Assembly (NCBI RefSeq): GCF_013387465.1
Contig: NZ_VYGV01000016.1
Coordinates: forward strand, 306,872-370,871
Reading direction: 5' to 3'
DNA from: Hydrogenophaga aromaticivorans
Lineage (GTDB): Bacteria; Pseudomonadota; Gammaproteobacteria; Burkholderiales; Burkholderiaceae_C
DNA: 64,000 nucleotides
The notes under the pieces were generated by a model. It was not told the DNA's origin. It searched no databases and was given only the letters and a program-made list of their open reading frames with translations. Below, in pieces: positions 41,678 to 51,782 of the stretch. The translations under genes were made by a program, and so were the position numbers. How positions within the stretch are numbered: position 1 is the first letter of the stretch; each line of letters begins with the position of its first letter.

Positions 41678-42097
41678 TCAGCTGAGCAAGAGCTTTCGCA
41701 CCAGGACATACTCGTGCATGCGTAGCATGTCCTTCTCGGTCGGGTCCGCCAAACGCGTGAGGTCCATGTTGTCGGCGTTGTCTGCCAACTTGACCTCCCG
41801 TGCCAGCGAATTGATCTTGGCTCTCTTGGCGGCCTCAATGCGTGTCTCTTTTGGTCCCTTGGTCAGCGCCAGTACGGCTTCAACGATTTCCGCATCGAAG
41901 CCCGCGTCACGCAAATCCTGCTCGGTCACCTTGGTGTCCTCCAGCAAGTCGTGCATTGCAGCCACGGTTTTCGCCTTGATGCCTTCCACGGCGTGCATCA
42001 CGCGTAGCACATGCAGGATGTACGGCTCTCCCGCCTTGTCGATTTGACCTGCGTGGTGAATGGCTGCGAGTTCCAGAGCTTTTTCGAGTGTGGGCAT
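41678..42097 (-). CDS. HD-domain phosphohydrolase, MESH1/SAH-like
   Basis: 139 residues from the Met at 42097; a 19-residue longer version from 42154 is possible. The HD signature is complete in outline: an early His pair (A-A-I-H-H-A-G), H-D in A-A-M-H-D-L-L-E-D-T and D in K-L-A-D-N-A-D-N. The length matches stand-alone small alarmone hydrolases (ppGpp hydrolase-like). It stands alone on the minus strand at the left edge of the accessory region, so it may be island cargo. Confidence 0.83.
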   Translation of the reverse strand: MPTLEKALELAAIHHAGQIDKAGEPYILHVLRVMHAVEGIKAKTVAAMHDLLEDTKVTEQDLRDAGFDAEIVEAVLALTKGPKETRIEAAKRAKINSLAREVKLADNADNMDLTRLADPTEKDMLRMHEYVLVRKLLLS

Positions 42098-42218
42098 GCG
42101 AAGTTGTTTTGCGCAGTGGTGAGATGAACTGATCGTATGCTTGATCTGCCCCACTATGGGGTGGCGCCGTTGTCATCGCGTGGCGGGAAATCATGAACAC
42201 TTGGGGCTGAGAGAAAAA

Positions 42219-43145
42219 TCACAGATCCAAGTTCAGCTGGCGAATGAGAGCTTCTTTGATCTGCTCCAGTGACTGTGTTTGCTCCAGCACCACGATATCT
42301 TCCAGATCGCAACGAAAGTCTGCCTTTGCAGGCGCGGACAGGGTGAGCGGAATGCGTGGAATTTTGACTCGGACTCGAACGGGTACCTTGGCCAACTGCG
42401 CCAACAAAAGGCTCACCCGGTGTTCTTCCTGTACGACCTTGAGTGTGATGCGGCTGCCCAAGGTGAACAGTCTCGTGTCGGCATCGTCGAGTGCAGATAT
42501 TTCTATGATCACGGTGCCTGCCTGCTCTTCATACCCCCCTGTGACACGACCTTGCAGATGGTGCTCGCGCTGGCTCGCTACTTGCTTGACGGCAAGCTTT
42601 CCCATGTTGAGATCAATGGGGCCGGCCAGCGACTGAACTGTAGGTACTCGCTGACCTAGCAGGGATAAGACGCTGTTCGTCAGAGCTGGATTGGGGAGCT
42701 TGTCCAACTGGTCTCGGATGCTCTCAAAACTGATCGAGCCGCTCTGCGCAGCGGCAATCACCTTCTTGATTGCCTGTACCGTTTCTCTCAACGTCACGTG
42801 TTCAGCAGCAATTTCCGGCGTAGGGTCCAGCTCTTGCATCAAGCCGACCGACGTGTTGGCCAACACCAGTGTCAGGATCAGGTCTCTGGCGTCCTTGACG
42901 CGAATCAACACGAAATGGCGACCGGGCGTTGGGTTCATGGTCAAAAGCTGGTTTTCGACGCGGCGCATCGCTTTGAGCATGTCGTCCAGCGTGCAGAACT
43001 CATCGTCTGGTAAGGCCTCACTGACGGCAGCGGGTACATCACTGGCACTGGCAAAAAATGCCGAAGCGCAATAGCCCTTTCTGGCGTTTCCTTCGCGAGC
43101 AGCCTGAGTCAGGGGGGTGGATGTTTTTCGTGGAGCAGAAGCCAT
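42219..43145 (-). CDS. Unknown 308-residue protein paired with the giant recombinase
   Basis: I do not recognise this protein. The first about 40 residues are basic and low-complexity. A possible globular domain runs from about 45 to 115 (E-F-C-T-L-D-D-M-L-K-A-M), followed by helices, and the C-terminal third is beta-rich with many Val, Arg and Lys (V-P-V-R-V-R-V-K-I-P-R-I-P-L-T-L near 265). It lies 44 bp downstream of the giant recombinase gene on the same strand with no other partner, so the two probably form an operon. Confidence 0.7.
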   Translation of the reverse strand: MASAPRKTSTPLTQAAREGNARKGYCASAFFASASDVPAAVSEALPDDEFCTLDDMLKAMRRVENQLLTMNPTPGRHFVLIRVKDARDLILTLVLANTSVGLMQELDPTPEIAAEHVTLRETVQAIKKVIAAAQSGSISFESIRDQLDKLPNPALTNSVLSLLGQRVPTVQSLAGPIDLNMGKLAVKQVASQREHHLQGRVTGGYEEQAGTVIIEISALDDADTRLFTLGSRITLKVVQEEHRVSLLLAQLAKVPVRVRVKIPRIPLTLSAPAKADFRCDLEDIVVLEQTQSLEQIKEALIRQLNLDL

Positions 43146-43189
43146 ACAAACTCAAGCGGTTGGGGAAAAGGAATGGATTGCTTTCCAGA

Positions 43190-46100
43190 TCACTGCCGGG
43201 ATGTCCTAAGGATGAGCAATGCATTCGCGAGCACTCTCACCAGGGTGGTCCAACGTGCCTTTGCAACGGTGTTGCGGGCCCATGGATCTCTGGGTTGGAT
43301 GAAGATGCGAGGCAATGAGCCGATATCGTGCGCAGGTGACCCGATGAGCACCGCATCCAGTTTGGACAGCTGGATATTGAGCGCTGGGTCCACTCTCCTG
43401 ATATCGCTGACCACTTCCAGGCAGATCTGCGACTTTTCTAAGCGAGGTGCTACGGCGATGATTTCGTCTTCCCAGTGGACCAGTTCATGCCTGGGCAGAA
43501 GCAGTTGAAGGAGCATCTGCAATTGCTGTGTCGGGATGCCTGAAAGTACCGTGATGAGATCGTGAGCTTGCGGGGATTGCAACTGCCGAACGTCGGCCGC
43601 CATGGCTCGACCTGTGATGTCGCCCTTGACTCGACCTCGAAGAGTCTCTGAACTGAAATTTGACAAGGCCAATCTTGATTCCAGGGCATCAACGGCTTGT
43701 CGTTGCAGACCGCTCAACATGTTGTTTGCCGTGCGCTGATCCTGACCCAGCATGCGAAGTCCCAAGTACATCACCTGAAGCGACAAATTAGATTCCGCGC
43801 TTGTAGGTGCACTACCCCACGCAGACGTTCTCACTGGGAGCACAGGTGATACAGCGGCGATGGGTGGCAACGTCTGACTCTTGTCCTTCGTGGTTCCCTC
43901 GGGCAGTTTGCTTTGGAAGTACTCCCATGGATCTTGATACCGTTGATCCCGTGAGCGGGCCTTGGTCAAGGCGGCTGTGCTGACACCGAGCTGGTTGAGC
44001 AGATGCTCGGTTGGACGATGTCGAATCAGTGTGGCTCGGAGTGCAAGCGCCCTGACCGGAATCCAAGCATGGAAGTAGTAGCTCAGTGTCGTCCGAACCG
44101 ATGCGTGACCTGCGCATAGTCGAACAACGTCTGTGGCCCATGCCCGGTGCTTTTGATACCCAAACAGTGCGCTGGTAGCCCTCGGCCCCGTCCCTCCTGG
44201 CTGAGGTGGTTTGGTTGCCCATCTCCAATCCGGGAGCAGAAGATGAGACACGACGTGAGCGCGGAATGCATGAATTCGAAAATTCGGGTTCCGGGCAACA
44301 CTTTGTATTGCTTCGGTGATGGCACTTCTGATCCACGCAGAGTCCACGGTCCAGGTGCCGTCGTGCAGGGTTCTGCTTCCAAAAATCAAGGCCTCAGGAA
44401 CGCCATGGGTTTTCAGTTCTTCGATCTGCTGAATGAGCGAAGTGAGTTCGTGAAGGTGTTCTTCAGTGAGTGCCAGCCTTCGGCGAGCCGCGTGGCTTTT
44501 GAGGTGTGCGTATCCGCGCGATGTAATACAGATTGCGCCGTCAGCAGTGGCGTCGCTGATGGCCGCCGTGGCCAGCTCGCTCCATCGCATGGGTAGACTG
44601 CCGAGCAACTTGATCGCGAGCTGAATGCGTGCCTGACGTAAGGGGCCGTCTTGCGATGAAATCAGCAGAGAAGCGGCTTGATCCAGTTGTTCTTGTGTAA
44701 AAGCCGCAATCGCTGTCGTGGCTGTGGCTACTGGGTACCGTTTGATCTGAGTGAGATCTGCGCGCGACGGCAGCGGGTGTCCCAGCTCCCGGAGGCATTC
44801 CATGAGCCACTCGGACGCTTCGGTCGCGGTGACCGTTTGCTTTTCATCGGCGTGTGAAAACGCCATAAGGTCCCGGCAAAATTCAGCCCATTCTTGCGCG
44901 TCAAACGCGTCAGGATCCAGATTCCTCGCCATAGTCAGAAATGGGCGCAGCGTACTCAGATAGGTGGCTTGGCTGCTCCATTCGATCGCATTTCGTTTGC
45001 TTGCTCTGATGCGGGCGGCGTTGACGGAAACCACGCGAACCAAGGTGCATGTGAGTTCGCCTTCTGTTGGAATCCTGGACAAAGACACCCAGCGATCAAA
45101 AAGTTGCGCGCGCTTCTTTTGCTCTCCCAACTTGTGGCGCGATGACCCCAGGCGGTTGACCACTTTGTAGAAGGCGCTGAACAAGTCAGTGGTGGTCCGA
45201 AGTACATGACGCGGACGGGCAGGGGGCTCGGCGCCCTGTGATGCCTCCAGCCCAAATAGGTCGGCATTTGAGCGGCTGTCCAGAACCGGAGCATGACTGT
45301 CGTTGGAATAGCAGAGTTGCACTGCAGGGGGTAGGCACCAGTCGGCCCACAGCCGGCTGCATGCAAGCAACGCCTTGGCCACGTCGACTTTTTCTCCTCC
45401 CCAGCAGTCAGGGGTCGCCTCACCGATCCACTTCTCCGCTGCTTCGAGAACCTCGGAGTAAGCACTTGGTTTGATCTCTGCGTTCTGACCATGCCGGGAT
45501 AGAAATATGGCGGTCGGTAGCTGAACAGGCGTGACCAGCACATGTTTCGAATTGGAACGCTTGAATTTTGCAACCCACCCCGCCGACCCCAGTTCGAACG
45601 ACACGTTGATGTCTTCAAATATTGCTTCCAGGTCGATGGGCTCGTTGAGCGCGTCGAAGCTGACCAGGTGAAGCCACAGCAGGGCGTGTGGGTGGTTTGG
45701 TCCATGGCCATTCATCAGCAACTCCCGGACACGATCCATGATCCGGACGGCGGCCAGGTGCCAGCGGCTGAAAACCGGTGCATCCCATTTCTCGATGTGC
45801 ACACGATAGGCGTAGTGAACTTTTTGTACCCGGCTACCAGGCGTGACAACGAATTTATAGGGGTCCGGAAAGGATGCTTTCGCGCCGATGTCTGGAAGCC
45901 ACTTCTTCAGCAAACTTTCGAGTAGGACGCCGGCAGCTTGTGTGGCTGATTCCGGCGTGTACATGGCCCCTCCGGCAGGCAGCGCGAGTCCAGCTGTGGC
46001 ATGCCCGGTGATCAACCGCAGGAGATGAGGGTCCTCGCCATCAAGCGCCCAGTGGGTGATCAGCACGTGGCGCATGAAGTTTTTTCCAGCTGAAAAGTAG

Positions 46101-48115
46101 CGTTGGGAAACAGCTTCGATATCCGCGGCCGTGACAGCCGATCTCGTGACCTTCTCTGAGCTGAAATCGAGGTACTCAAAAGCCGGCGCATCAAATCGAA
46201 GTTGACCTGAAGCCAGCTCCTTCCATCGTTCAGCAAGATCGCGTCGCAGGCGGCTTGCAAGCCGTTCCGCAACGGCTTTGCGGGCAATAAACCATCGGTG
46301 CAATCCATGACGCAGATGTATTGGTTTGGGCAGGATCCTCGACGAGTTTTCGTGCTCAACCTTTTTGTCTTCCAGCCACCAACAATCTGGTGCGCAGTAC
46401 AGCGCGCCGCATGTGATCTCTTCAACCCTTGAGCCGCGACCGCCTACGAGAAATGTGGTCAGTGCTGCCGTCAACTGAGTGAGTTCGTTGAGGTTGTGAA
46501 TTGATGAAGTCAGGTCGGTTCGCCTGTTGAAAATGATCGCCTGCAACGCGTCCGCACGCGCTTCCATTTCAGCGAATCCCGCCGCAATGTGTTCATCCGA
46601 TGGAATGTCACGCTCGTGTGCCACTTCCATGGCAGAAACGCAAGGTCCAACGCCCAAGCGTTCGTAGACTTCACCGACCGATTGCCGGATGTCCTGCTCT
46701 GATGGGTGAAAGTAGTAAAGCGCGGCTTGTGGTGTTAGAGCCAAATCCAGCGAGCACACGCTCGCCATCAAATCTGATCCACAAGAATCGAGATACACCC
46801 TTGAAAGGGAGTTGGCCCATCTGCCAGGGAACGCTGGAAATGCAGGATCGCTGAGCTCCATGAGCAGGTCATGCGTCTGCCTGAGCAGCGCATCCCAGGC
46901 GGCCGTATCGACGTCCACTCCAAAAACGTCCGAGAAATGCCGAAGGGCATTGACGTTCTTACCATGCGCCAATCCTGCGATTGCCTGCGCCAAGGGCATA
47001 GGAAACGGGACCGCAATTTTGGCGGAATTGCGATTCGGGTCAGCCATGTTGGGCTCGCCTCGAAGCGACTGCATCGTCCAGCTGAACCGCAGATGATTGA
47101 GATCTATGTTGAGGTCAACGTCACGATTGACATTGGCATGCAGCAACACATGCCCCGGTGTTGAGGTCAACAGACTGGTTGTAGCGATCACAGCGGCGCG
47201 GTGCCATGGGGAGCTGACGTCAGTCAGCAGCGCAGGGAGCCTGGCTGCGATCTGACACGTCTGTTCGATCGGAAGCGAGGTCCATGATTCGAGCGCAAGC
47301 CGGTCGTTGCGCGGGGCGTTGCTGGCTCGCTTGATGTGCCAACCAATGATGGAGTCTCCCCGAGCAAACTTCGGAAGTGACGGTTCCGGATTCTCCGGCC
47401 CTTCGATGGCATCGACTCCACTGGATGTAGCCGAAAGGCCAGGATCCGACTTGCCTTCCTCAGGGTTTTCGCAACTCGCAGAATCCAGGCTTGGTTTCTG
47501 ATTTTGAACGCCCCACTCGGCGATGCCAGCCGGCGTCGGCATGGGTCGCTCAAGGAGGCCCAGCACCAGTTTGCCAAGAGCGCGGACCGGAGGATGGGCA
47601 AGACCCTCAAGGAGGTTGACGAGCTGTGAGCGCTCGATGAGAGCGGGTGTCGTCAATAGAGACCACTCGGCATGTAGCTTGCGTCTGCCTGCGAGTGCGA
47701 TGTAGCAGGTTCTCAAACCTTGAAGTGCTGCGTCGGTCAGTAGGTGGCGGCTTGCAGCGGCTTCCAGCACAAAGTGCACGAACAAGGTGTCGAGGTATTT
47801 GGTCGACTGGGTTTTGACCAGGCCGCGGGCTTCGATGCACCCGTGCAACCCACCCCAGGGTTGATGTTCGAGGTCGGCTGCCTTGGGCGATGCGGACGCC
47901 TTGCGCGCGTCGACTGTGACTGCCCTGGAAAGATGACGAACGATCCTCAGCCACTCTTGTGTGCTGGCCCCAACACCCAAGGCCTGACATGCTTCCAGCG
48001 AGCGGGCTAGCTGCTGTAGATATACCGGCGCACCGTTCCCACTGGGAGGACAACCTGCTGCAGTCAGCAGGGGATGATCAAAGGGATTTTCGATGGAGAG
48101 GGCACTAGTGGACAT
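43190..48115 (-). CDS. Giant protein with two tyrosine-recombinase-like cores
   Basis: 1,641 residues, four to five times a normal integrase. The second core (about residues 1130-1360) has the full catalytic set: R1177 in P-M-R-W-S-E-L, H1282-x-x-R1285 in I-H-A-F-R-A-H, H1337 in A-G-H-A-S-V and Y1346 nine residues later. An earlier region (about 535-730) repeats the pattern in degenerate form: R563 in G-S-R-V-E-E, N679-x-x-R682 in N-F-M-R-H, H705 in T-G-H-A-T, and a Tyr at 719 with wrong spacing. The remaining about 900 residues are unrecognised and contain no obvious membrane segments. The ATG at 48115 has a poor ribosome binding site; a TTG at 48145 would add 10 residues. Lower GC than its neighbours. 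Confidence 0.78.
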   Translation of the reverse strand: MSTSALSIENPFDHPLLTAAGCPPSGNGAPVYLQQLARSLEACQALGVGASTQEWLRIVRHLSRAVTVDARKASASPKAADLEHQPWGGLHGCIEARGLVKTQSTKYLDTLFVHFVLEAAASRHLLTDAALQGLRTCYIALAGRRKLHAEWSLLTTPALIERSQLVNLLEGLAHPPVRALGKLVLGLLERPMPTPAGIAEWGVQNQKPSLDSASCENPEEGKSDPGLSATSSGVDAIEGPENPEPSLPKFARGDSIIGWHIKRASNAPRNDRLALESWTSLPIEQTCQIAARLPALLTDVSSPWHRAAVIATTSLLTSTPGHVLLHANVNRDVDLNIDLNHLRFSWTMQSLRGEPNMADPNRNSAKIAVPFPMPLAQAIAGLAHGKNVNALRHFSDVFGVDVDTAAWDALLRQTHDLLMELSDPAFPAFPGRWANSLSRVYLDSCGSDLMASVCSLDLALTPQAALYYFHPSEQDIRQSVGEVYERLGVGPCVSAMEVAHERDIPSDEHIAAGFAEMEARADALQAIIFNRRTDLTSSIHNLNELTQLTAALTTFLVGGRGSRVEEITCGALYCAPDCWWLEDKKVEHENSSRILPKPIHLRHGLHRWFIARKAVAERLASRLRRDLAERWKELASGQLRFDAPAFEYLDFSSEKVTRSAVTAADIEAVSQRYFSAGKNFMRHVLITHWALDGEDPHLLRLITGHATAGLALPAGGAMYTPESATQAAGVLLESLLKKWLPDIGAKASFPDPYKFVVTPGSRVQKVHYAYRVHIEKWDAPVFSRWHLAAVRIMDRVRELLMNGHGPNHPHALLWLHLVSFDALNEPIDLEAIFEDINVSFELGSAGWVAKFKRSNSKHVLVTPVQLPTAIFLSRHGQNAEIKPSAYSEVLEAAEKWIGEATPDCWGGEKVDVAKALLACSRLWADWCLPPAVQLCYSNDSHAPVLDSRSNADLFGLEASQGAEPPARPRHVLRTTTDLFSAFYKVVNRLGSSRHKLGEQKKRAQLFDRWVSLSRIPTEGELTCTLVRVVSVNAARIRASKRNAIEWSSQATYLSTLRPFLTMARNLDPDAFDAQEWAEFCRDLMAFSHADEKQTVTATEASEWLMECLRELGHPLPSRADLTQIKRYPVATATTAIAAFTQEQLDQAASLLISSQDGPLRQARIQLAIKLLGSLPMRWSELATAAISDATADGAICITSRGYAHLKSHAARRRLALTEEHLHELTSLIQQIEELKTHGVPEALIFGSRTLHDGTWTVDSAWIRSAITEAIQSVARNPNFRIHAFRAHVVSHLLLPDWRWATKPPQPGGTGPRATSALFGYQKHRAWATDVVRLCAGHASVRTTLSYYFHAWIPVRALALRATLIRHRPTEHLLNQLGVSTAALTKARSRDQRYQDPWEYFQSKLPEGTTKDKSQTLPPIAAVSPVLPVRTSAWGSAPTSAESNLSLQVMYLGLRMLGQDQRTANNMLSGLQRQAVDALESRLALSNFSSETLRGRVKGDITGRAMAADVRQLQSPQAHDLITVLSGIPTQQLQMLLQLLLPRHELVHWEDEIIAVAPRLEKSQICLEVVSDIRRVDPALNIQLSKLDAVLIGSPAHDIGSLPRIFIQPRDPWARNTVAKARWTTLVRVLANALLILRTSRQ

Positions 48116-48313: not shown

Positions 48314-48514
48314 TCAGCCGTACTTGAGCACATCAAGCAGGCTGCATCTCGCGTCTTGGGACCGATCTAGGCTCTGCGCCAATTTGCGAACCAACATCAA
48401 GCCCGCTTCGAGCCCACGGGCAATGGACTCCAGGCGCTGGCGGTTGAGAGAGTCGCCTTGGTCCTCGACGCTTTCTGCCGGAGTGAACCCCTCGGGCGAC
48501 AGCAACCGTATCAA
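48314..48514 (-). CDS. Small protein translationally coupled to hipA
   Basis: 66 residues from a TTG that overlaps the hipA stop (TTGA). The protein is largely helical with regular spacing of Leu and Ala (R-L-E-S-I-A-R-G-L-E-A-G-L-M-L-V-R-K-L). No family is recognised. The coupling argues that it is real, but the TTG start and short length keep this uncertain. If expressed it would be a third member of the hipBA operon. Confidence 0.4.
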   Translation of the reverse strand: MIRLLSPEGFTPAESVEDQGDSLNRQRLESIARGLEAGLMLVRKLAQSLDRSQDARCSLLDVLKYG

Positions 48515-49869
48515 AGGTACTTTGAAGGCAATTTGGCCGCTTCAGTGGCTATCGTCGCCAGCAAGGCACCGGCGCTCAGCGCTTGTTGCGCTATGCCCGA
48601 CGCAAACACCCGTTCTTCGTCCTCATAGACGCCTGATTGGGCGAGTGCCACGGCGTGTTGCTCCACGCCTTTCTGCAGGCGCTGCGTTTCCCTGGCCAGC
48701 AGGCGGCGGTCAATGTCACAGCGGATGGCAAAGTCGGCCAACGGAAAGGCTTTCACGTCTTCGAACCTGAACGCATCGCCAAAGGCCATCGCCATTTCCT
48801 GCGACATCTGCGGGTACTGGCTGACGCTCACCAGGTCGTACCAAGGCGCTGCCGACAGTCCGTATGGACCCACAAAAAACGAAAAATTCTTGCCGTGGGC
48901 ATCGCAGTTGCCGATCACGTACTGGAACAAGGCCCAGCGCAACAGGTTCAGTTTGTCGATCGCCTTTTTGTTGACGTACTGAAGGAGACCGAACAGCTTT
49001 TCAAAGCTCACCCCGTCACGGTACTGCGCAGCGGCTCCGGCGCTGCCGACGTTGCGCTCGTACTTGAAGCTCACGGGCAGGTCGCAGGCCTGGCAGGCAT
49101 CGATGATGTGCAGCCGGAGGACCCAGGTGCCACCTGCATCCTGCACCACTTCGCGGTCGAAGCGACGGATCGCCAGCACCGGCCGGGGCGTGCGAAGGAT
49201 GGACACTTCTGCGGCGGGCAGTCCCAAGGCCCGGGCCAGGCTCATGCAGTAGTGCTCGTTGATCACCATGTGCGGCAGCTGGTTGCCGAGCGGCTGAGGC
49301 TTCAGGATGTGGGTGGATGCGAGCGGGTATTCAGGCAAGACCAGGCTGCCCGTCGCCCCCATGTCGCCATCCACATAGACCAGCAATTTGTCCTGGTAAC
49401 CCGCTACCGACAGGCGCACCTGGCCGTCCCACTCCATGAACGGACGGTGGTCACGGTCCTGGATGCGTTGATCGAGTTCATCCAGGGAAACCCGGCGCCA
49501 GGGTGCTGCAGCGGGCTTTGATCGACCGTCCTGATCGGGGGTGAGAAAACGGAAGGCGCCCGTGGTCTCGGTTCCCAGTGCCTGGATCAACCCATACACA
49601 TTGCTTTTAGCAACCCCTTGGCTGGCTGCCACGATGTCGAGGGCGCGGCCTTCCGGTAGCAGGTTTTCGATGAAGCGCCGCACCGATGCGGATGTGTAGC
49701 CACCGGCCGGTGCCTGCAGGGGCAATGCCGGTGAAAGGCCGTAAGCCTCGGGTGATGCGAGCCACTCGGGGCTGTAGGCCAGGGCCCAGGTCTCGTCTTC
49801 AGCCTGGTAGCGGATGTCGGCCACGGGCGTGTCCAAGGACCACAGTCTCAGGAAGTGGGTGGTGCTCAC
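48511..49869 (-). CDS. hipA: HipA-family serine/threonine kinase toxin
   Basis: 452 residues with the two HipA parts: an N-terminal domain with T-S-A-S-V-R-R-F-I-E-N-L-L-P-E-G-R (about 60-76) and a kinase domain with the catalytic loop N-C-D-A-H-G-K-N-F-S-F-F. HipA kinases inactivate targets such as glutamyl-tRNA synthetase and cause dormancy. The GTG start overlaps hipB by 4 bp, so the antitoxin is translated first. It is the closest recognisable gene pair to the tRNA-Arg scar. Confidence 0.92.
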   Translation of the reverse strand: MSTTHFLRLWSLDTPVADIRYQAEDETWALAYSPEWLASPEAYGLSPALPLQAPAGGYTSASVRRFIENLLPEGRALDIVAASQGVAKSNVYGLIQALGTETTGAFRFLTPDQDGRSKPAAAPWRRVSLDELDQRIQDRDHRPFMEWDGQVRLSVAGYQDKLLVYVDGDMGATGSLVLPEYPLASTHILKPQPLGNQLPHMVINEHYCMSLARALGLPAAEVSILRTPRPVLAIRRFDREVVQDAGGTWVLRLHIIDACQACDLPVSFKYERNVGSAGAAAQYRDGVSFEKLFGLLQYVNKKAIDKLNLLRWALFQYVIGNCDAHGKNFSFFVGPYGLSAAPWYDLVSVSQYPQMSQEMAMAFGDAFRFEDVKAFPLADFAIRCDIDRRLLARETQRLQKGVEQHAVALAQSGVYEDEERVFASGIAQQALSAGALLATIATEAAKLPSKYL

Positions 49870-50204
49870 TTGGACGCCTCGCGATGACCGGCGGATGCTT
49901 CGCGCAGCATTTGCATCTGCGGATGGTCTTTGGGCAACAGCACCAGTGCCAGGCCCAAGCCGTCGAGCACGCCCATCAATTTGTCGGTGCGCACGCTGCC
50001 CTGGCCGTTCTCCAGCCGCGAGAGCAGATCAACCGACACGCCGGTCAAGGCGGCCGCATCATCGATGCGCAGCGACTGGTTCATGCGTTGCGCACGCACC
50101 TGCAGGCCGACGTCGACCATGTTTTGGACAACCTGGACGGCCGGCACCGAGGGCGCTTGGCGGGTCCGGGGCGGGCGATCGGTGCGGGGGGCAGTGGGCT
50201 TCAT
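49866..50204 (-). CDS. hipB: HipB-like XRE antitoxin
   Basis: 112 residues. A basic, Pro-rich N-terminal tail of about 25 residues precedes a Cro/C1-type helix-turn-helix (I-D-D-A-A-A-L-T-G-V-S-V-D-L-L-S-R-L-E-N-G-Q-G). It should neutralise HipA and repress the operon through sites upstream of its start. Inverted TTTCGGAGTA/TATTCCGAAA copies are found there. Confidence 0.88.
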   Translation of the reverse strand: MKPTAPRTDRPPRTRQAPSVPAVQVVQNMVDVGLQVRAQRMNQSLRIDDAAALTGVSVDLLSRLENGQGSVRTDKLMGVLDGLGLALVLLPKDHPQMQMLREASAGHREASK

Positions 50205-50616: not shown

Positions 50617-50645
50617 AAAACCATCCAACAACCAGATGGTTTTTT
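50617..50645 (+). terminator. Intrinsic terminator adjoining the tRNA fragment
   Basis: AAAACCATC (50617-50625) and GATGGTTTT (50635-50643) form a 9-bp stem with loop CAACAACCA, continuing into a run of T. It ends one base before the tRNA-Arg fragment begins. No annotated plus-strand gene lies just upstream, so it would end an unrecognised transcript or insulate the element edge. Confidence 0.7.
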
Positions 50646-50648
50646 GCC

Positions 50649-50693
50649 CTCCGAAGCCAAGGGTCGTGGGTTCGATCCCCGCCAGCCGCACCA
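50649..50693 (+). other. 3' fragment of tRNA-Arg(CCG), probable attachment-site scar
   Basis: The fragment starts at the anticodon loop CTCCGAA (anticodon CCG), continues through GCCAA, a full T arm (GTGGG-TTCGATC-CCCGC) and the 3' acceptor strand CAGCCGC-A-CCA. The 5' half (acceptor strand, D arm, anticodon 5' stem) is missing and is replaced by the terminator. Such 3' halves arise when an element integrates into a tRNA gene. With this orientation the element lies to the left and an intact tRNA-Arg copy should be further left; none is seen in the window. Confidence 0.82.
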
Positions 50694-50795: not shown

Positions 50796-51782
50796 ATGAC
50801 CCAGTTCAGTTTCGAATTTGACCCGCCCAAGCCCACGGAGCCGCCGGCCGCGGCACCCGTTGTGGCACCCCTGGCGCTGAATCTGGAGCAGATGGCGCAG
50901 TTGCTGGAGCAGCACGCCGACTACCGGGTCCTGCGCCGACTGGTGCCCTGCATGGACTTCGGTCCGAATCCCGGCAACCCGGGCGCCGGCCTGCGCGTGC
51001 TGGTGCTCGACACCGAAACCACCGGACTCTCCCACCAGACCGACAAGATCATCGAGTTGGCCATGTTGCTGGTGCAGGTGGACGCCGCCACGGGTTTGCC
51101 GTGGGGGCCGGTTGAGGTCTTTGAAGGTTTTGAAGACCCTGGCATGCCGATTCCGCCGGCGGCGCTGGCCGTGACGGGCATCAGCGACGACATGGTCAGG
51201 GGTCAGCGCCTGGACGACGAGCAGGTCGCGGCCATGGTGTCGAAGGCCGATCTGATCGTGGCGCACAACGCCGGCTTCGACAGGCCCTTCGTGGAGGCCC
51301 GTTTTCCCTGCTTCGCTGCCAAAGCCTGGGCCTGTTCGTTCATGGACATCGACTGGAAAGCGGCCGGTTCGGGCTCGTCCAAGTTGAGTGCGCTGGCCAA
51401 CGACCAGGGCTGGTTCTACGACGCGCACCGTGCACAGGTGGATTGCCATGCCTTGCTGCAGGTGCTGAGCCGACCCGTGGGCCCCGCCACCACGGGCCTG
51501 AGCCAACTGATCACAGCCGCTGCGTTGCCCAGCTTCAAGTTGCGGGCGACGGGTTCACCCTTCGAGTCCAAAGACAAGCTGAAGGCCCGGGGCTACCGGT
51601 GGGATGCGGATGCCAGGGTCTGGACCTGCACGCTGGCGAGCCAGGCGCTGCTGGATGCCGAGCTGGCATGGCTCAAGGCCGAGGTCTATGGCCGGCGCAG
51701 CGCGCGGCTGGACATCGAAGCGATGGACAGCACCGTGCGTTATTCAGCGAGGCACGGTCGCACCGTTGAACAGGGCTTGTAG
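50796..51782 (+). CDS. DnaQ-like 3'-5' exonuclease
   Basis: 328 residues. Exonuclease motif I is L-D-T-E-T-T-G-L (about residue 71), motif II is in A-H-N-A-G-F-D-R-P-F (about 155) and motif III D-C-H-A-L-L (about 217), matching the DEDD superfamily. A C-terminal extension with G-Y-R-W-D-A-D-A-R-V-W-T-C (about 266-278) occurs in some stand-alone proofreading-type exonucleases. It is the first ordinary chromosomal-looking gene right of the tRNA scar. Confidence 0.88.
   Translation: MTQFSFEFDPPKPTEPPAAAPVVAPLALNLEQMAQLLEQHADYRVLRRLVPCMDFGPNPGNPGAGLRVLVLDTETTGLSHQTDKIIELAMLLVQVDAATGLPWGPVEVFEGFEDPGMPIPPAALAVTGISDDMVRGQRLDDEQVAAMVSKADLIVAHNAGFDRPFVEARFPCFAAKAWACSFMDIDWKAAGSGSSKLSALANDQGWFYDAHRAQVDCHALLQVLSRPVGPATTGLSQLITAAALPSFKLRATGSPFESKDKLKARGYRWDADARVWTCTLASQALLDAELAWLKAEVYGRRSARLDIEAMDSTVRYSARHGRTVEQGL

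Follow-up and report, generated by a model that had tools for sequence, protein, structure and literature searches.

A giant Hydrogenophaga protein joining two tyrosine-recombinase cores, one of them probably non-catalytic, within a genomic island at tRNA-Arg

The stretch analysed here, referred to as the window, comprises 64,000 nucleotides (nt) of the Hydrogenophaga aromaticivorans genome (assembly GCF_013387465.1, contig NZ_VYGV01000016.1, positions 306,872 to 370,871) and contains a gene for a 1641-residue protein (the giant, P0001), followed by a gene for a 308-residue protein (the partner, P0002). As a first-pass annotation of the bare sequence had proposed, both open reading frames (ORFs) are present with these lengths on the same strand, which is the minus strand, and the order of transcription on it is hipB, hipA, giant and partner. 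The profile comparisons presented below support the presence, in a single chain, of two tyrosine-recombinase cores that differ in lineage, with the two halves of the giant corresponding to two separate types of large recombinase, here named Rec1 and Rec2 (both names were coined in this analysis). The genome of the window is designated G000, and its Hydrogenophaga relatives that carry the giant are G015, G066 and G014. The features of the giant and its partner, in window coordinates, are as follows.

43190..48115, minus strand: giant gene (P0001), 1641 residues, with a Rec1-like N-terminal half fused to a Rec2-like C-terminal half
45746..47368, minus strand: Rec1-like part of the giant, residues 250-790, matching separate Rec1 proteins in hhalign
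45881..46558, minus strand: core 1 of the giant, residues 520-745, with R560, K584, R593, N679, R682, H683, H705 and Y719
43961..44707, minus strand: core 2 of the giant, residues 1137-1385, with R1177, E1180, K1206, H1282, R1285, H1337 and Y1347
42219..43145, minus strand: partner gene (P0002), 308 residues, 44 nt after the giant
42276..42578, minus strand: C-terminal domain of the partner, residues about 190-290, a possible OB-like small barrel in a moderate-confidence model

The giant is found in four of the 67 genomes of the genus, namely G000, G015 (93% identical and in the same place), G066 (28%) and G014 (27%). Its reading frame is free of stops in these three relatives, and the ratios of nonsynonymous to synonymous substitution (dN/dS; Nei-Gojobori point estimates, G000 versus G015) are 0.28 for the giant, 0.17 for core 1, 0.25 for core 2 and 0.20 for hipA. 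Because it stays open in three relatives and has a low dN/dS, the frame is more than a product of chance, and the giant is under purifying selection. Queried whole, it has no match in Pfam, NCBIfam or PADLOC at E<=1 (PADLOC matched neither P0001 nor P0002), and it draws attention to a family of proteins missed by both Pfam and NCBIfam when the query is the whole giant.

Judged by its residues, core 2 is a complete tyrosine-recombinase core, with the R, K, HxxR and H set (R1177, K1206, H1282, R1285, H1337, together with E1180) and a Tyr nine or ten residues after the last His (H+9/+10). The first-pass annotation had named the same Arg and His residues together with Y1346; the Arg and His assignments stand, and the catalytic Tyr is more likely Y1347, since it is invariant in alignments of 4, 6 and 7 sequences and the residue preceding it is His in G014. 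The RxxE box and the Tyr at H+9/+10 occur in 13/13 proteins scored, which also keep the core-2 R, H and Tyr. In G452 and G254 a Tyr replaces the box-II His of the HxxR motif. The pattern used for this motif picked up no box in G478, G265c or G134b, of which G265c does have the His in the alignment. Among profile searches, a PHROG integrase profile matches residues 1047-1359 of the giant (E 1.1e-7), and PF00589, run on residues 1020-1400 alone, gives E 1e-5 and 25.8 bits, slightly below its cut-off of 27.1.

Core 1 had been described as an earlier, degenerate copy with R563, N679, R682, H705 and Y719. All of these residues hold except the box-I Arg, which is R560, invariant in sets of 4, 6 and 12 sequences, instead of R563, which is Lys in G014. 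Within the 12 rows of the core-1 alignment, R560, K584, R593, R682 and G704 are invariant and N679 and H705 nearly so. Compared with the PDB, the family profile built from these 12 rows (P0001 included) retrieves tyrosine recombinases in the first 6 of 16 rows, namely 4a8e (E 8.4e-8), 1a0p (2.1e-6), 5dcf (2.3e-6) and three Int proteins (about 0.009), XerD being matched at E 2e-6. Both the R box and the RH..GH box fall in register when the profile is aligned to 4a8e and XerD. Core 1 conforms, in other words, to the catalytic-domain sequence profile of tyrosine recombinases and lacks the complete catalytic set, carrying N679 in place of the box-II His and no Tyr at +9/+10. That this likeness arose by chance, core 1 not being a recombinase domain, is very improbable. 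It would fit with the lack of any Pfam or NCBIfam match at E<=1 for core 1 alone, with the absence of a profile link between the two cores (0.1% in hhalign) and with the poor AlphaFold model of residues 250-790, which was built from a 4-row alignment, has a predicted local distance difference test score (pLDDT) of 40.9 and yields no Foldseek match at E<=0.001. But P0001 scores 125 bits against a core-1 hidden Markov model (HMM) from which it was left out, the family profile falls in register with known recombinases, and core-1 relatives match PF00589 below its cut-off (Rec1 of Vibrio cyclitrophicus, E 2e-4 over profile positions 16-157; G552, E 4e-5).

The position of a possible nucleophile in core 1 varies across the family. 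Among 13 sequences scored (G478 is absent from the residue counts, as the pattern found no box there), a Tyr lies at +8 to +16 from the His in six, at differing offsets: at +14 in the four Hydrogenophaga proteins (Y719), those of G000 and G015 being nearly identical, and at +11 in the proteins of G518 and G265. No Tyr occurs in that interval in the remaining seven. A Ser occupies H+12 in 8/13 (G254, G296, G518, G539, G574, G265, G472 and G552) and, as read from the printed boxes, also in two plasmid Rec1 proteins introduced below. Because the nucleophile is not conserved across the family, core 1 is most likely a non-cutting half. The competing view, that both cores cut and that Y719, 14 residues after H705, is a displaced nucleophile of an obligate two-active-site enzyme exchanging both strands in Hydrogenophaga, appears unlikely. 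Its strengths are the invariance of R560, K584, R682, H705 and Y719 in the 4/4 Hydrogenophaga sequences and a dN/dS lower in core 1 than in core 2 (0.17 versus 0.25); it is countered by the Asn at the box-II position, by a Tyr spacing of +14 instead of +9/+10 and by the family counts of Tyr and Ser just given.

The giant is read as a fusion of Rec1 and Rec2 instead of a duplicated integrase because its halves match two separate, adjacent genes in other Proteobacteria. Residues 250-790 align with the C-terminal portion of separately encoded Rec1 proteins and reach the end of these (hhalign 98.9%, E 3.3e-17, columns 512-862 of a template of 864; 0.5% against a Rec2 control), and residues 1020-1400 align with separate Rec2 proteins (98.1%, E 8.7e-14), with at most 1% in the crossed comparisons of halves and types. 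An internal duplication is not supported: the 0.1% between the core-1 and core-2 profiles, which do not detect each other, therefore argues against a recent one. In even draws of genomes, relatives were matched in 6/399 of the order (G000 included) and 8/369 of the class (G000 and G721, a frame of 395 amino acids (aa), included). Fused forms beyond the genus are those of G452, G254, G296 and G478; in G134 (L018 8626-13424) two genes with a 4-nt overlap take the place of the giant, a split that was considered as proof of the fusion point and rejected, since the break falls within core 1. Separate large proteins lie in tandem in G518 (844 and 787 aa), G574 (831 and 1033) and G265 (863 and 1023), with further separate loci in G539 (800 and at least 513, at a contig end), G552 (415, a frame containing the Rec1 core, and 1067) and G472 (869, near a contig end).

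Leave-one-out HMMs, whose E values were calculated for one protein each, find core 1 followed by core 2 in 8/8 fused proteins, the weakest being G478 (33.9 and 18.5 bits). Separate Rec1 proteins score 68-180 bits with core 1 and no more than 2 bits with core 2 (6/6), and the separate Rec2 proteins G518c, G574c, G265c and G552c match core 2 at 96-153 bits with no core-1 match; in G539c, which ends at the contig end, neither core was matched. An outside test was provided by two annotated plasmids that had been retrieved with the G518 proteins and are absent from the training rows. Plasmid NZ_AP025482.1 of V. cyclitrophicus carries adjacent genes for Rec1 (WP_261896629.1, core 1 E 5e-33) and Rec2 (WP_261896631.1, core 2 E 2e-20), as does plasmid NZ_CP103998.1 of Ketogulonicigenium vulgare (WP_273691786.1, core 1 E 2e-38; WP_273691787.1, core 2 E 5e-12), with crossed scores at E 0.01 or worse. 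The giant shares with these pairs the order of a Rec1 core before a Rec2 core, whether fused or adjacent. Trees with long branches require two changes of the fused or separate label and are compatible with one fusion or two. With P0001 as query, tblastn found no relative among 72,556 plasmid records at E 1e-5 and none among 50,697 phage records at E 0.01, nor did a pattern-limited scan of viral contigs; the G254 giant has none among the plasmid records at E 0.01. The proposal of a fused heterodimeric recombinase in the first-pass annotation is borne out as far as two cores of different lineages and their separate counterparts are concerned; the giant's role as integrase of its island is not, as an ordinary integrase is present.

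The partner gene follows the giant in 4/4 Hydrogenophaga genomes. It is broken in G015 after about 100 residues, next to what is presumably an IS66-type transposase, measures 230 aa near a contig end in G066, where it is possibly cut short, and 300 aa in G014; over its first 100 codons dN/dS is 0.04 (G000 versus G015, again a Nei-Gojobori point estimate). Outside the genus, the corresponding position holds a P0002 homologue in G452 (hhalign 83%, E 8.7e-6) and, in G254 and G134, a similarly sized gene with no detectable homology to P0002 (hhalign 0.7-2.4%). In G296 and G478, as judged from the ORF layout, no partner occupies it. The pair thus co-occurs in all the Hydrogenophaga carriers and not in these last two. 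The partner model has a pLDDT of 58; among the folds compared, its residues 190-290 are closest to SilF (Z 11.6, 79 aligned residues, 1.6 A), with weaker matches at Z 7-8 to structures of single-strand-binding proteins, RecO, PriB and RPA that may reflect no more than a shared arrangement. These structures are presumably OB folds, and the model points to a possible OB-like domain in a protein that may bind DNA.

The surroundings of the giant, listed below, place it within a genomic island.

48460..48490, no strand: breakpoint relative to G068; rightward from about 48483 the sequences are 94% identical, leftward (giant side) they are unrelated
48511..49869, minus strand: hipA, for a HipA-type kinase (Pfam HipA_C, E 1.8e-44), between the giant and the tRNA scar
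49866..50204, minus strand: hipB-like gene for a helix-turn-helix antitoxin
50649..50693, plus strand: tRNA-Arg(CCG) 3' scar of 45 nt, right end of the island
50796..51782, plus strand: exonuclease-like gene, named by reading and with no family search, in the right flank of the island; it adjoins the tRNA in G065

The giant locus is part of an island of 111 kb at tRNA-Arg(CCG) and stands 2.5 kb from the scar, which is the 3' end of the tRNA gene; the intact gene is found about 111 kb away (G000:C21:246539-246614). G065 has an empty site of the island: 130 bp beyond its intact tRNA begins DNA that matches the exonuclease-like gene found after the scar in G000, and to the left of the tRNAs the two genomes are collinear over 12.5 kb, in six pieces of 77-90% identity. 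A mobile context with a tRNA scar, for which the first-pass annotation had proposed to look, is thereby supported, and a 3'-end tRNA repeat, an empty site in a relative and an integrase gene are all present, as in tRNA-targeted genomic islands. A diagnostic base of the tRNA tells the same story: it is A in the intact tRNAs of G065 and G025 and in the scars of G000, G015, G014 and G066, and G in the intact tRNAs of G000, G015, G014 and G068, the intact gene of G066 having A (the scar of G068 falls outside the comparison, its pattern not being matched). The order scar, hipA, giant and partner and their orientation agree in G000, G015 and G014, with an identity between G000 and G014 of 27% for the giants and 29% for the HipAs. 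In G068 the hipBA genes, the scar and the exonuclease are present, 94% identical from window position 48483 on, and the giant is absent; this genome was considered as an empty site of the giant itself and rejected, its left flank matching G000 at no more than 68% besides the shared edge. Joining the G066 contigs C5 (giant) and C176 (tRNA scar) was dropped, as their ends do not overlap and share just a 34-nt match of 82%.

The islands of G000 and G014 that hold the giant also share an integrase of ordinary type (79% identity). It most likely made the tRNA scar, so that the giant may act for an element nested in the island or as a helper of the island itself. It has also to be considered that the giant has lost any part in moving DNA and is a mere passenger, a recombinase-derived DNA-binding, defence or island-maintenance protein kept with toxin-antitoxin genes. 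The island's own integrase and the recurrence of toxin-antitoxin-type neighbours, with HipA beside the giants of the window and G014, in G518 and on the K. vulgare plasmid, are in its favour, but the retention of the core-2 R, H and Tyr in 13/13 proteins, the lack of a PADLOC match for P0001 or P0002 and a presence in 4/67 genomes of the genus, which fits mobility, speak against it, and we give it little credence.

Several further observations were made around these loci. HipA-type genes 26-29% identical to that of the window stand beside Rec1/Rec2 loci in four places, the window's own included (window 48511-50204, L006 822-2168, L034 14935-16194 and L110 12622-14161), and other such loci adjoin genes that are AbiE-like (L017, by reading), Fic (by Pfam), Phd/PIN-like (L018, by reading) or RelE/Phd (L109, by annotation). 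An HD-domain, SpoT-like gene at window 41678-42154 has copies of 94% (G089, L095) and 83% identity (elsewhere in G000, L096 3717-4187), the likeness stopping at the gene borders. Just inside the tRNA scar, an inverted repeat (ACCATC..GATGGT) is common to G000 and G066 (window 50617-50648; L091 7234-7265), and on the G066 contig C176 (L091) a set that reads as HlyD/TolC-like precedes the scar. The G066 giant adjoins a 2,354-aa frame (L022 6983-14047), read as having glycine-rich calcium-binding-type repeats, and a CRISPR-like array of 17 repeats of about 36 nt with a period of 71-76 nt (L033 13400-14619) lies near the 1767-aa fused relative of G478. Finally, a 7.3-kb block with two PF00589 hits, 99.4% identical at two places in G000 (L118 3186-10521, L119 3619-10954), is probably a recently moved multi-recombinase element; it has no profile match to the giant, Rec1 or Rec2.

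Taken together, the giant is a real and conserved fusion of two large tyrosine recombinases, one catalytic and the other probably not, which is accompanied by an accessory gene and stands in an island context. Our preferred reading, which we hold to be probable, is that it is a site-specific tyrosine recombinase composed of a fused cutting (Rec2) and non-cutting (Rec1) pair and assisted by an accessory partner. According to this scheme, Rec1 and Rec2, neighbouring genes elsewhere, would have been fused into one giant in which Rec2, with core 2, acts as the strand-cutting half. Rec1, with core 1, would keep the sequence signature and the phosphate-binding residues without the box-II His and a family-conserved nucleophile, and would most likely bind one arm of the attachment site and shape the synapse without cutting; the partner, with its possible OB-like domain, would be an accessory protein of the recombination complex. 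This division of labour, DNA binding by the partner and the movement of DNA by the enzyme are what we infer. By fixing cutting and non-cutting subunits at 1:1, the fusion would lead to the exchange of one strand per site, a scheme suggested by the strand-biased SE elements discussed below, and the giant may be a self-contained version of a machinery built elsewhere from separate proteins.

The points that weigh against this reading are the poor model of core 1 and the mutual silence of the two core profiles; the conservation of Y719 in all four Hydrogenophaga giants, with which core 1 could be active there; the Tyr with which G452 and G254 replace the core-2 box-II His; the partner-position genes of G254 and G134, without detectable homology to P0002, and the lack of one in that place in G296 and G478; the ordinary integrase of the islands; and the failure of G068 as an empty site of the giant, together with the fact that no ends of a giant-moved unit were found, there being no exact direct repeat of at least 10 nt between the two near flanks tested. 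A more far-reaching version, which we regard as rather doubtful, would make Rec1-Rec2 an undescribed module that pairs a nucleophile-replaced recombinase-like protein (with the conserved Ser at H+12 in the separate proteins) with a catalytic one, and that has become a single polypeptide in Hydrogenophaga, where a half-active synapse, exchanging one strand per site, would give strand-biased, replication-dependent mobility of DNA with toxin-antitoxin cargo.

Among known systems, the closest to the giant are the separate Rec1-Rec2 pairs of the V. cyclitrophicus and K. vulgare plasmids, which have both core types in the same order and differ in being two genes and in their small companions, placed before the pair in Vibrio and on both sides in K. 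vulgare, where the 248-aa companion has no homology to P0002. The Gamma-mobile-trio (GmtX, GmtY, GmtZ) likewise combines a recombinase with companions, but its GmtY model has 441 positions; membership of the giant in this group was rejected, there being no Gmt model among its NCBIfam matches and, in direct profile comparison, no match of L117 (a true 441-aa GmtY by model, with 908- and 200-aa neighbours by position) to core 1, the giant or the partner, and a weak, generic match of its GmtY to core 2 (E 4e-4). RIT elements and Tn554 (TnpA, TnpB, TnpC), compared by description only, also bring several tyrosine recombinases together, as separate proteins; RitA has two core-binding domains and not two catalytic ones, and the terms fusion, fused and two CAT are absent from the main text of the source (PMC8138268). 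Literature searches turned up no paper describing a tyrosine recombinase fused in this way; the phrase 'double integrase' occurs once in PMC5559632.

Two multi-recombinase systems are comparable in working principle. GInt islands (ginABCD) need four genes, for three recombinases and GinD, with GinC lacking the first Arg (PMC5385486). They resemble the giant locus in combining tyrosine recombinases, one of them without a catalytic residue, with a small protein in site-specific islands, and differ in having ginD and three genes for recombinases, repeats of 10-17 nt at their flanks and insertion sites that are protein genes where the portion of the source drawn on names them, the word tRNA being absent from its main text (PMC5385486). 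At the giant locus there are only the giant and its partner, followed by the HD-domain gene and with hipA adjoining. SE elements use intA-tfp-intB-srap, in which Tfp lacks the catalytic residues (PMC10214605), so that here too a recombinase-fold protein without them stands beside catalytic ones; unlike the giant, they have four genes, including an IntA of ordinary size, with no fusion mentioned in the portion of the source drawn on (PMC10214605), and no such operon or third recombinase gene lies beside the giant. From their descriptions, the giant would resemble both systems in working principle and be set apart by gene content. SE and GInt elements need several recombinase-like proteins, some without catalytic residues, and the giant, in which a cutting recombinase is naturally fused to a probably non-cutting one at a fixed ratio, makes the reason for this testable within one protein by point mutations in each core.

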